This document shows, in pieces, positions 53,700 to 59,973 of a stretch of DNA of 64,000 nt; within the stretch, counting starts at the first letter, position 1, and each line of letters begins with the position of its first letter. Both the position numbers and the translations under genes were made by a program. The DNA is from Hyphomonadaceae bacterium BRH_c29. GTDB lineage: Bacteria; Pseudomonadota; Alphaproteobacteria; Caulobacterales; Hyphomonadaceae. The stretch is taken from positions 1 to 64,000 of the forward strand of contig LADW01000079.1 in assembly GCA_000961695.1 (NCBI GenBank). Direction: 5' to 3'. The notes under the pieces are model-generated. The model did not search any database. It was not told the DNA's origin and saw only the letters and a program-made list of their open reading frames with translations.

Positions 53700-54029
53700 C
53701 TAAGCTGCGATGGCGTAGGCCGGGCTCATGCGGGAGGAGACATGCGCTTCGGCGCGGTAGGGGCGGCGCACGACCGGTGGGGCGACGATCTCGCCCAGAT
53801 GGTTTGCGGCCCAGGCGTTCGGCTCTGTTTGCAGGATGCGTTCGCCATATTCGTTCTGGCCGAGGGTGACGCGCGCCATGATGCCGTCCGGCCCGGCGGC
53901 CCAGAATTCCACGCCGGCACTTGCCAGCTCCATCGCCTTGTCGAGTTCCATCCGGAAGCTGTCGCCGAAGACGACATCCTTCACTTGTGCCGGATCAAAC
54001 TCACATCCCTTGATGACCAAACGTACCAT
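53700..54029 (-). CDS. Uncharacterised protein with upstream SOS-type boxes
   Basis: I do not recognise this 109-residue protein. It starts at 54029 (MVRLVIKGCEFDPAQVKD); an earlier ATG at 54080 would add 17 basic residues and has a poorer context. The chain has mixed alpha/beta character, with a central MELDKAMELASAGVEFWAAGPDGIMARVTLG and a Pro/Arg-rich tail (APPVVRRPYRAE). There is no signal peptide or membrane segment. The two GTTC/GAAC direct repeats 106-140 bases upstream suggest LexA control. The gene lies alone between mccA (convergent) and gltX (same strand, upstream). Confidence 0.65.
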   Translation of the reverse strand: MVRLVIKGCEFDPAQVKDVVFGDSFRMELDKAMELASAGVEFWAAGPDGIMARVTLGQNEYGERILQTEPNAWAANHLGEIVAPPVVRRPYRAEAHVSSRMSPAYAIAA

Positions 54030-54134
54030 CACGCAACTCCCAGCTACTCGTCTTGAACCCAGATCTCGCGGGCGTTTCATTCGCCCTTCGATATGAGAAC
54101 ATAAGCAGAATATTCACGTTTTGGAAAGGAAAAA

Positions 54135-54169
54135 GTTCCATTTTTGTTCACGGCGAACCAAAACGGAAC
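54135..54169. promoter_or_regulatory. Mirrored pair of alphaproteobacterial LexA-type boxes
   Basis: GTTC at 54135-54138 and 54146-54149 are spaced by exactly 7 bases. GAAC at 54155-54158 and 54166-54169 are spaced by exactly 7 bases as well. Each is a perfect GTTC-N7-GTTC SOS box, read on opposite strands, and together they form a near-palindrome of 35 bp. They lie between gltX and the uncharacterised gene at 53700-54029. Confidence 0.65.
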
Positions 54170-54198
54170 AAAATCAAAGAATTGCAGTTTTCTGCCGT

Positions 54199-55539
54199 TC
54201 AGCCGCCGAGACGTTTCAGCGCGCGTTCCCGTCCGATCAGCGGCAACAGCGTGCCCATGTCGGGGCCGTGTTCCTGGCCGGTGAGGGCTTTGCGCAGCGT
54301 CATGAACAGGCCGCGGCCCTTGCGGCCGGTCTTGTCCTTGACGGCGTTTGCCCAGGTCATCCAGGTCTCGCCCGTCAGCTCACCTTCCGGCAGCAGCGTG
54401 GCAGCTTCAGCCACGAACTCCTTGTCTTCGGCATCGACCATGGGCGTGATGTCGCCGAACACGGTGTCGACCCATTCGGCGACGTCCGGCAGGAGGGCGC
54501 AGTTCGCGCGCACGGCCAGCCAGAAGGCTTCATTCGCGGCGCGGGGGTCCACGGCGGCGAGGCGGTCTTTTACCGCATCAAACGCCAGCCCATGCAGAAT
54601 AGACGCGTTGAGGTTCTTCAGATCTGCCTCGTCAAACCGGGCCGGCGAGCGGCCGATCTTGCCGAAATCAAACTCTGCGGCCAGCTGGTCGAGGGTTTCG
54701 CGCGCTTCGACATTGTCAGACGTGCCGATCTTCGCCAGCAGCGAGCAGATCGACATCGGCTCGTAGCCCTGCGCACGCAGTTCGCCCATGGAGAGCGAGC
54801 CGAGGCGCTTGGACAGGCCCTGGCCATCGGCGCCGATCAGCAGCGGCGTGTGCGCCATGTCTGGCGCTTTGCCGCCAAGCGCGTGGAAGATCTCGATCTG
54901 GGCACCGGAATTGGTCACGTGGTCTTCGCCGCGCACGACATGCGTGATGCCAGCCTCGATATCATCCACCACGGAGGGGAGGGTATAGAGGAACGAGCCG
55001 TCCTCACGGATGAGGATCGGGTCTGACAGGCTCGACGTGTCGATGCTTTGCGGTCCGCGCACGAGGTCGTTCCACTCGACGCGTTCGCCGGACAGTTTGA
55101 AACGCCAGTGCGGCTTTACGCCGTCGGCTTCGAACTTGGCTTTCTCGTCGTCCGTCAGGTTCAGCGCGGCCCGGTCATAGACCGGCGGGCGCCCGCGCGA
55201 GAGGGCGATCTTGCGCTTGCGGTCCAGCTCGTCGGCCGTCTCGTAGCATGGATACAGCAGGCCCATCTCGCGCAGCTTCGCGGCAGCGGCCTCATACTGG
55301 TCAAAGCGGTGCGACTGGCTGAACGTGTCGGCCCAGACCAGGCCCAGCCAGGTCAGGTCAGCGCGCAGGCCATCCTCGTATTCCTGGGTCGAGCGCTCAA
55401 GGTCTGTGTCATCAATGCGCAGGATGAACTTGCCGCCCGCCGAGTGGGCGAACAGCCAGTTGATCAGCGCGGTGCGCACATTGCCGACATGAAGGCGGCC
55501 GGTGGGCGATGGGGCGAAACGTACGATTGGAGAAGTCAT
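54199..55539 (-). CDS. gltX: Glutamyl-tRNA synthetase
   Basis: This 446-residue class I synthetase starts at 55539 (MTSPIVRFAPSPTG). The HIGH motif reads GRLHVGNVRTALINWLFA and the KMSKS motif is GLSKRLGS. VVRGEDHVTNSGAQIEIF and RGRPPVYDRA are typical further blocks. It charges tRNA-Glu; many alphaproteobacteria carry two such genes, of which one also charges tRNA-Gln, so strict specificity cannot be assumed. The length is slightly below the usual 460-480. It is cytoplasmic. The divergent lipoprotein gene starts 136 bases away. Confidence 0.95.
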   Translation of the reverse strand: MTSPIVRFAPSPTGRLHVGNVRTALINWLFAHSAGGKFILRIDDTDLERSTQEYEDGLRADLTWLGLVWADTFSQSHRFDQYEAAAAKLREMGLLYPCYETADELDRKRKIALSRGRPPVYDRAALNLTDDEKAKFEADGVKPHWRFKLSGERVEWNDLVRGPQSIDTSSLSDPILIREDGSFLYTLPSVVDDIEAGITHVVRGEDHVTNSGAQIEIFHALGGKAPDMAHTPLLIGADGQGLSKRLGSLSMGELRAQGYEPMSICSLLAKIGTSDNVEARETLDQLAAEFDFGKIGRSPARFDEADLKNLNASILHGLAFDAVKDRLAAVDPRAANEAFWLAVRANCALLPDVAEWVDTVFGDITPMVDAEDKEFVAEAATLLPEGELTGETWMTWANAVKDKTGRKGRGLFMTLRKALTGQEHGPDMGTLLPLIGRERALKRLGG

Positions 55540-58374: not shown

Positions 58375-59973
58375 TCAGGAGGCGAGGGCGTCCTGCGTAT
58401 GCGGTGTCAGATCGCCGAAGAAACAGGCCCGGTTCCGTCCGCCCCGCTTGGCGGCGTAAAGCGCGATGTCTGCTGCATGGGCGAGCGTCTTCAGATCGAG
58501 TCCGTCAGATGGCGCGCAGGCCACGCCGATGGAGGCGCTGACGCGGGCTTTCCGGCCGATCGACAACACCAGAGGCGCGCTCAGCTGCTGGTTCAGCCGC
58601 CGGGCCAGTTGCTCGACCACTTCGCGGCATGGCGCATTCCTGAAGACGATCAGGAATTCGTCTCCGCCGCTCCGCACGGCCAGATCGTCTTCCCGGATGA
58701 TGGATTTCATCTGTGCTGCGACAAATTTCAGCACTTCGTCACCTGCGCCATGCCCATAGGTGTCGTTCACGGCCTTGAACCCGTCCAGATCCAGAGCCAT
58801 CAGGTAAGCTGGCATCTCCGGGCTGGCGCCAGCGAGGATCTCAGGCATGTTGCTTTCGAGGCGGCGCATGTTCCCAAGCCCGGTCAGCGGATCGGTATTG
58901 GCCAGTTTGAGGGCCTTCTGGCGCTCCTTCGTGACGGCGGTGACATCTTTCACCACGCCCAGATAGCCGGCAAATGCTCCGGATGCGTCATAGCGCGGCA
59001 TGCCGGAAATCTCGATATTGTATGTCTGTCCATCCGGGTCGGTGAACAAGGCGTGCGAGCTGGTATAAGCGGTCGTGCTTTCGTGGGCCTGCTGCATCCG
59101 CGCGAGGTGTTCCTCATCCATCTGGATGATGTCGAGAGACCGGCATCCAATGAGGCTGTCGCGGCCGCCTTTCAACTGTTTGAGGAATTTGCCTTCGGCA
59201 TAGATGATGTGCCCGTCCGTATCGGTTTCCCAGAACAGGTCGGCGGCGAGCCCGGCAAAGTTTGACAGGCGCGTGAGGGCGGCTTCGGTTGCTTCCTGCT
59301 TGTCACGCAGCTGGGTGAAAGCGCTGGAAATCGTCTTGTGAGCAGGCCAGAAGATGAACAGAACTTCTCCGATAACCGTCAGGAAGGCGATCAGAAGGGA
59401 AAATTCCTGGATTTTCTGGAGCTGTACGGAGCGCGTGCGCGTGGCTGTTTCAAACGCGTTTACGGTATTGTCCAGTCTGGCCGCCAGTGTGCCGTTGGCC
59501 GCTGTTTCGATCTGCATCAGCGCGTCATCGGCGTCTTGCGGCGCCGCCAGCACCAGGCGCGCATTCGAGGTCAGGCTCAACACCAGTTGGTTCAGTGAGG
59601 GTGACCCATCCGTATAGAGACCGGTCAGCATGGCATCATGCGCGCTGATCCGCGTCAGTTGCTGGTGCAGTGTCTCGAATTGCGAGAGGGACTCTTTCAG
59701 TTCGGCTTTGTGATCGGCGCCGGAATATTCGACATAGTCGTGCGCGGCATGCGAAATTCGCTGCAGCAAGGCGCTCTGCTGGCCGCTCAGACTGATCGCG
59801 GAGCCGTCACGAGAGGTGCGCCGAAGCTCGGTCTCCGCCAGGATATGACTGACAAGCAGGACGCTGAGAATCAGCCCGAGGGCAATGATATAACGCCGCC
59901 ACAGCACTTTCAGCTGCAACGGTCTCGCCGGTTCTTTTGCTGCATCCTGCAGCGTGAAGAGACGTTTGGACAT
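58375..59973 (-). CDS. Membrane PAS-GGDEF diguanylate cyclase
   Basis: This 532-residue protein has a membrane helix at about 26-46 (YIIALGLILSVLLVSHIL), a periplasmic helical sensor region to about 195, and a second helix near 200-220 (LLIAFLTVIGEVLFIFW). A PAS domain (about 235-355, with LFWETDTDGHIIYAEGKFL and YNIEISGMPRYDASGAFAGYLGVVKDVT) precedes the GGDEF domain. The active site is GGDEF at 436-440 and the product-inhibition site RxxD is Arg427-Asp430 (REDD), so an active, feedback-inhibited cyclase is expected. c-di-GMP acts on CckA in Caulobacter, but a link here is not shown. Confidence 0.92.
   Translation of the reverse strand: MSKRLFTLQDAAKEPARPLQLKVLWRRYIIALGLILSVLLVSHILAETELRRTSRDGSAISLSGQQSALLQRISHAAHDYVEYSGADHKAELKESLSQFETLHQQLTRISAHDAMLTGLYTDGSPSLNQLVLSLTSNARLVLAAPQDADDALMQIETAANGTLAARLDNTVNAFETATRTRSVQLQKIQEFSLLIAFLTVIGEVLFIFWPAHKTISSAFTQLRDKQEATEAALTRLSNFAGLAADLFWETDTDGHIIYAEGKFLKQLKGGRDSLIGCRSLDIIQMDEEHLARMQQAHESTTAYTSSHALFTDPDGQTYNIEISGMPRYDASGAFAGYLGVVKDVTAVTKERQKALKLANTDPLTGLGNMRRLESNMPEILAGASPEMPAYLMALDLDGFKAVNDTYGHGAGDEVLKFVAAQMKSIIREDDLAVRSGGDEFLIVFRNAPCREVVEQLARRLNQQLSAPLVLSIGRKARVSASIGVACAPSDGLDLKTLAHAADIALYAAKRGGRNRACFFGDLTPHTQDALAS

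Follow-up and report, generated by a model that had tools for sequence, protein, structure and literature searches.

A probable multi-site LexA operator-promoter in front of a small gene for a putative remote DUF3892 relative in Hyphomonadaceae bacterium BRH_c29

The window analyzed here is a stretch of 64,000 nucleotides from contig LADW01000079.1 of Hyphomonadaceae bacterium BRH_c29, and all coordinates refer to it unless stated otherwise. Two genes on the minus strand, gltX and a gene for a 109-residue protein, enclose a short region with three LexA-type boxes and a likely promoter. The features of the locus, in the direction of transcription, are:

54199-55539, minus strand: gltX (glutamyl-tRNA synthetase), upstream and on the same strand as the small gene; Pfam tRNA-synt_1c and Anticodon_2, start set by eye, N-terminus conserved
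54155-54169, minus strand: outer (distal) LexA-type box, GTTC-N7-GTTC, a perfect copy; rank 2 with the six-box matrix and 3 with the ten-box matrix
54135-54149, plus strand: gene-proximal LexA-type box facing the outer box, a perfect copy; best site of the window with both matrices
54098-54127, minus strand: likely promoter assigned by eye, with a -35-like element at 54127-54122 and a -10-like element at about 54103-54098
54097-54111, minus strand: third LexA-type box, with a single core mismatch; it overlaps the likely -10 element; rank 3 with the six-box matrix and 2 with the ten-box matrix
54037-54041, minus strand: GGGAG, resembling a ribosome-binding site, assigned by eye
53700-54029, minus strand: gene for the 109-residue protein, a putative remote DUF3892 relative; its relatives were found by protein search and by the promoter block
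53703-53717, minus strand: codons for the ssrA-like C-terminal tail YAIAA ([YF]A[VI]AA in 18 of 18 orthologues)

A promoter scan of the region returned no consensus promoter. The two facing boxes lie 106-140 bases ahead of the start codon of the small gene, as had been noted in the first-pass annotation.

The same annotation had described two perfect repeats facing each other across 5 bases. A pattern scan located both at these positions (on the plus strand at 54135-54149, on the minus strand at 54155-54169) and gave no further perfect GTTC-N7-GTTC copy in the 64-kb window. Their description as a double box was incomplete, since the third box at 54097-54111 had been missed. Copy number per window was uninformative because shuffled windows contained about as many perfect copies (mean 1.57, with at least two in 52 of 100 shuffles), so adjacency and quality of the boxes are what counts. 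Likewise, most of the 95 perfect copies in the whole genome (48 and 47 on the two strands) are ascribed to chance, since the pattern read backward occurred 70 times. The quality of the sites was scored with a matrix of ten boxes, which gave 21.4 for the site at 54135, 16.0 for 54097 and 15.5 for 54155, the three best scores of the window; the leave-one-out scores of the ten boxes themselves ranged from 12.9 to 23.8, and the 54135 box ranked seventh among the 95 perfect copies of the genome. Because the ten boxes had been picked by hand, mostly for A+T-rich centres, the scoring was repeated with a six-box matrix, drawn from the same hand-picked list and made of the boxes at lexA, uvrA/ssb (two), recN, comM and dinB. 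The three sites again led the window (54135, 20.2; 54155, 15.9; 54097, 15.7), followed by a fourth at 59350 with 14.4. At a threshold of 14, fixed after the scores were known, none of 400 simulated windows with the dinucleotide frequencies of the real one had two sites scoring at least 14 within 80 bases, whereas the real window had three. This agrees with the earlier claim that such close pairing is improbable by chance.

The surroundings of 25 of the 95 perfect boxes (24 loci), mostly chosen for A+T-rich centres, were inspected with NCBIfam and Pfam. Beside them were genes for lexA, uvrA, ssb, recN, a YifB/ComM-type ATPase and DNA polymerase IV, and also for a photolyase-domain protein, a PA0069-type radical SAM protein and two glyoxalase-fold proteins. 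Three of these genes (uvrA, recN and that of the photolyase) are truncated at the end of the locus and stay below the NCBIfam cut-off. LexA is encoded in this genome (TIGR00498 above cut-off at L093) and has its own box in front. The window boxes match those of lexA, uvrA/ssb, recN, comM and dinB in their own genome, which supports the reading of GTTC-N7-GTTC as the LexA box. We take the order of the source organism to be the Caulobacterales, and Caulobacter to be the model of that order. The GTTC-N7-GTTC sequence is shared with the Caulobacter LexA (SOS) regulon, and the boxes of the window genome broadly agree with the Caulobacter consensus (T/A)TGTTC-N6-TGTTC given in PMC13384398. The layout differs: PMC12700426 puts the share of single-box promoters in the Caulobacter SOS regulon at about 97%, whereas two perfect facing boxes and a third one are present here. 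Fourteen other box loci were rescanned, 13 of which could be judged (L089 was out of range). A single box was found in 11 of them; the uvrA/ssb locus had two boxes 80 bases apart, and L083 had an overlapping weak register. The L083 box, at 66854-66868 just past the window, is a strong perfect copy with a matrix score of 20 (rank 10 of 95). At L089 and L096 of this genome, glyoxalase-fold genes lie behind near-consensus LexA boxes, and the box at L089 has exactly the sequence that PMC12700426 gives for two SOS genes of Caulobacter.

Relatives of the 109-residue protein were found by protein search in 16 of 61 genomes (the source genome included), all of the same genus. This search took in 37 of the 42 genomes of the genus; a separate search of G061 gave no match, the promoter block led to G063 and G064, and G062 and G065 were scanned for the block only. 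The exact sequence GAACTTTTTCCTTTCC occurred once each in 18 of the 42 genus genomes, always before the 109-residue gene, and these included all 16 genomes found by protein search. The gene-proximal box, GAAC-N7-GAAC in the direction of the gene, and its spacing were kept in 18 of 18 orthologues, with invariant GAAC, AAA and GAAC and four variable positions inside N7. The third box was also kept in all 18, with one variable inner base. The outer box was identical in 10 orthologues (clade A) and absent in 8, and in the recA tree the ten genomes form one side of a branch with a support of 0.978. Conservation of the boxes before orthologues, which had been proposed as the test of the SOS reading, thus held for the proximal box throughout and for the outer box in one clade only. 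The 62-base block that spans the proximal box and the likely -10 element has 49 invariant columns and a mean pairwise identity of 0.92, compared with 0.64 for the third codon positions of the gene. Its alignment was built around a 16-base exact match, the anchor through which 2 of the 18 orthologues had themselves been found.

The element is kept with the 109-residue gene and not with gltX. In four genomes (G019, G017, G020 and G032) it lies about 190 bases or more from gltX and is still at the small gene, and in G032 a whole paralogous gene stands between gltX and the element. Hence, as judged from this conservation, the element is the promoter of 53700-54029 and not that of gltX, in line with the original choice of the gene served by the boxes. 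Of the 30 Hyphomonas genomes in the recA tree, 12 do not have the gene. Two of these 12 (G029 and G005) adjoin the gene-bearing group with a support of 0.938, and therefore the gene was probably lost from both and is probably dispensable.

Facing perfect boxes 2-10 bases apart were searched for in 299 genomes of the order and found in 12, compared with one genome for the reversed control pattern. Eight of the 12 cases were at the promoter of the small gene, three (in another family) were just before recA, and one was in an open frame that resembles tilS, as recognised by eye. In the source genome, the recA locus (L181) carries a facing pair with 4 bases between and one core mismatch per box. 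A second, terminal recA fragment lies at a contig end of this genome (G000:C48:2-106) and is perhaps an assembly duplicate. In Hyphomonas, the facing pair was present upstream of recA in 30 of 30 loci (L181 and L183-L211, from 30 of the 42 genus genomes), always with a 4-base spacer and with both boxes above 12 by the ten-box matrix; since these genomes are relatives and not independent trials, the 30 loci count as one conserved case. Two boxes above 9 with 4-5 bases between them were found in none of 3000 shuffled recA regions, the shuffles here and below preserving base composition only. The Hyphomonas recA boxes are imperfect, with GTTT and GTAC halves, so we regard them as putative LexA sites. 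Outside the genus, a draw of 60 genomes gave 23 new recA loci; anchoring succeeded for 18 and failed for 5. When each box had to have six or more of the eight core bases, the facing pair was found in 14 of the 18 anchored loci, compared with 56 of 2000 shuffled regions, and was lacking in the other four. The spacer was 3-4 bases in 13 of the 14 pairs, the 7-base spacer of G055 being doubtful, and several of the second boxes scored low (6.7-11.9).

The two operators share the arrangement of two facing boxes, with a spacer of 5 bases in the window and 4 bases both in the paralogue described below and in Hyphomonas recA; they differ in that the recA boxes of Hyphomonas are imperfect whereas both are perfect here, and the genes are unrelated. 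The mirrored double box pointed out in the first-pass annotation is therefore real, but it is a recA-type arrangement and not a unique one, and for the small gene it is limited to one clade. Since the same mirrored layout stands before recA, we conclude that the 109-residue gene carries a predicted recA-type LexA operator with unusually good boxes. In E. coli, multi-box LexA operators (lexA, colicin genes) are thought to result in tighter repression and later or sharper induction. The present operator resembles these in having more than one LexA site and differs in that each E. coli box is an inverted repeat, whereas the boxes described here are direct repeats that mirror one another as a pair. 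A partial literature search found no published account of the 109-residue gene or of a mirrored LexA pair at recA.

The first reading could not assign the protein to a family. Pfam indeed gave no match for the window protein or the orthologues tested, but profile comparison and a paralogue point to a remote relationship with DUF3892 (PF13031). Among eight family members scanned against Pfam, the sole match was the paralogue at L139, which passes the DUF3892 cut-off (25.1 vs 22.3 bits) and is 44% identical to the window protein; the window protein itself has no match above the gathering score. An hhalign comparison of 16 members with 13 DUF3892 proteins gave an E-value of 8e-4 over 53 columns, with a probability of only 24%. 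The likeness lies in the stretch around the helix and in the V-...-[LI]-x-T-...-N-L region. DUF3892 proteins end in the motif NNLxxLP, whereas the window protein has AN-x-x-GEI-x-APP and a long added tail. These comparisons suggest that it is a remote relative of DUF3892 and not a member. The paralogue (L139/L047, G032) is a DUF3892 gene between gltX and the main gene and is without an AVAA-type tail; in G032 it has facing LexA-type boxes of its own, 4 bases apart, one of them with a mismatch.

An AlphaFold2 model built with eight sequences had a pLDDT of 79.1. Residues 1-80 were well predicted as strands, one helix and strands, and residues 88-109 had a pLDDT below 50. Adding DUF3892 rows made a second model worse (64.3 vs 79.1). 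No convincing match to the protein model was found among solved structures, and the HPF and dsRBD folds were not among the rows of the structure comparison, which excludes nothing. Searching the PDB with the DUF3892 profile gave matches of about 25-33 residues to designed beta-trefoils (best E-value 8e-4), a proteasome subunit (0.035) and, weakly, ribosome-associated protein Y (0.49), all of which were discarded. What has been published on the DUF3892 fold allows a weak guess, namely that the protein may bind nucleic acid or the ribosome.

In other Alphaproteobacteria, the DUF3892 family was present in 13 of 289 genomes, and two of the 14 such loci (L118 and L128) have a perfect box at most 170 bases upstream of the match. 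This is suggestive of DUF3892 genes being SOS genes more generally in these bacteria. A weak homologue in G462 (L138) was dropped, as it contains a stop and runs antisense to a frame that looks by eye like an EAL-domain gene. No relatives of the 109-residue protein were found in phages or plasmids, none of 12 pattern matches in IMG/VR was confirmed, and PADLOC gave no match among the 16 members. In PHROGs, one unnamed family was matched by 13 of the 16 members (best E-value 0.0058) and another by 7 of the 16 (best 0.035).

All 18 proteins terminate in [YF]A[VI]AA, preceded by a stretch of variable length. Among 480 long open frames (250 codons or more, from the window and the fetched loci, some from related genomes and not all of them real genes), none ended in A[VIL]AA, and 10 ended in AA. 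The ssrA/ClpX signal is a hydrophobic residue followed by Ala-Ala at a free end; in this genome the tmRNA tag reads ANDNFAEGELLAA, and each of the 19 tmRNA tag peptides that were read across the genus ends in LAA or MAA. ClpXP substrates of the ssrA type carry a C-terminal hydrophobic-Ala-Ala on a flexible tail. The end motif was present in 18 of 18 proteins, and the tail is predicted to be disordered in the model, with a pLDDT below 50 for residues 88-109. From these five tail residues we infer rapid turnover by ClpXP. SulA and SidA are short-lived SOS effectors. The window protein would resemble them as a small protein under LexA control with fast turnover, and differs in that its tail is of the ssrA type.

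The mirrored repeat might instead be the intrinsic terminator of gltX, forming a minus-strand hairpin with UUUUUCC after it. The minus strand does fold (-15.8 kcal/mol, 14 pairs with one mismatch, z of -2.2 for 71 bases and -2.6 for 58) while the plus strand does not (z of -0.57), a run of five T follows directly, and the hairpin starts about 30 bases past the gltX stop. However, the 8 orthologues without the outer arm have no such hairpin and retain the proximal box together with the T run all the same, the element stays with the small gene in the four genomes where it lies apart from gltX, recA has the same mirror at a different location, and a terminator scan reported nothing at the hairpin. 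Since the outer arm is absent from the other clade, a terminator hairpin cannot explain the conservation there, and we rejected termination of gltX as the main role, considering it improbable. The hairpin could help to end gltX transcripts in clade A, with both roles coexisting. An even less probable reading has another repressor with twofold symmetry, for example of the XRE or TetR type, bound to the central GTTC-N5-GAAC palindrome. In its favor, the centre forms a good palindrome, and GTTCACGTGAAC occupies this place in the paralogue L139, but orthologues without the palindrome keep precisely the GAAC-N7-GAAC half with fixed spacing, the halves match the boxes of lexA, uvrA and recN, and the facing recA boxes form the same kind of centre.

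The distance to the start codon had been taken to demand either a leader of some 80 bases or a small RNA; the small RNA need not be assumed. A leader of about 60-70 bases is inferred, and it is partly alike within clades, which speaks for the reading that the boxes act but the product that counts is a small RNA and not the protein. Yet the reading frame is open in all 18 orthologues, and the 14 aligned ones are 58-88% identical to the window protein, while the leader from the -10 element to the start codon differs by eye between the clades. Rfam gave four matches, all far below cut-off, and a small RNA as the relevant product appears very improbable indeed. Stress promoters of the EcfG type have a motif of the GGAAC-N16-CGTT type. 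This assignment was rejected because clade B does not retain GGAAC or CGT in all of its members.

The reading that we favor, with good though not full confidence, is that the stretch is a multi-site LexA operator-promoter of 53700-54029, whose product, a DUF3892-like alpha+beta domain with a disordered tail, would be switched on by damage and cleared by ClpXP. The conservation of the boxes, their match to the SOS boxes of the genome and the recA-like mirror support the original suggestion of an undescribed DNA-damage response gene, and very probably the gene is a component of that response that had not been described before. In the undamaged cell, LexA dimers would occupy the two facing sites above the -35 element and the one over the -10 element and so block the promoter; the facing sites would be on one face of the DNA, since they are 20 bp apart from centre to centre, about two helical turns. 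Upon damage, RecA filaments would bring about LexA cleavage, and the gene would be turned on together with recA. During recovery LexA would return and ClpXP would quickly clear the protein, which would limit its action to the time of damage. On this sequence evidence, the product is best read as a tightly repressed, damage-induced and short-lived SOS protein. It is conceivable, but rather doubtful, that the protein is a transient brake on translation or the cell cycle acting only while RecA is active, through an RNA- or ribosome-binding DUF3892-type domain and the ssrA-like tail, that a DUF3892-type protein thus has a role in the damage response, and that the mirrored pair is a distinct, ancient class of recA operator in this order.

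If the favored reading is true, the SOS response would gain an uncharacterised, apparently genus-restricted gene with good comparative support. The analysis also exposed a mirrored two-box operator, putatively of LexA, in all Hyphomonas recA loci covered and in most of those anchored outside the genus. As the LexA of this group reads a direct repeat, the way in which two dimers sit on a mirrored pair, and their possible cooperation, can now be tested directly. Should the tail act as predicted, the protein would be a natural case of a damage protein with a built-in ClpXP degron.
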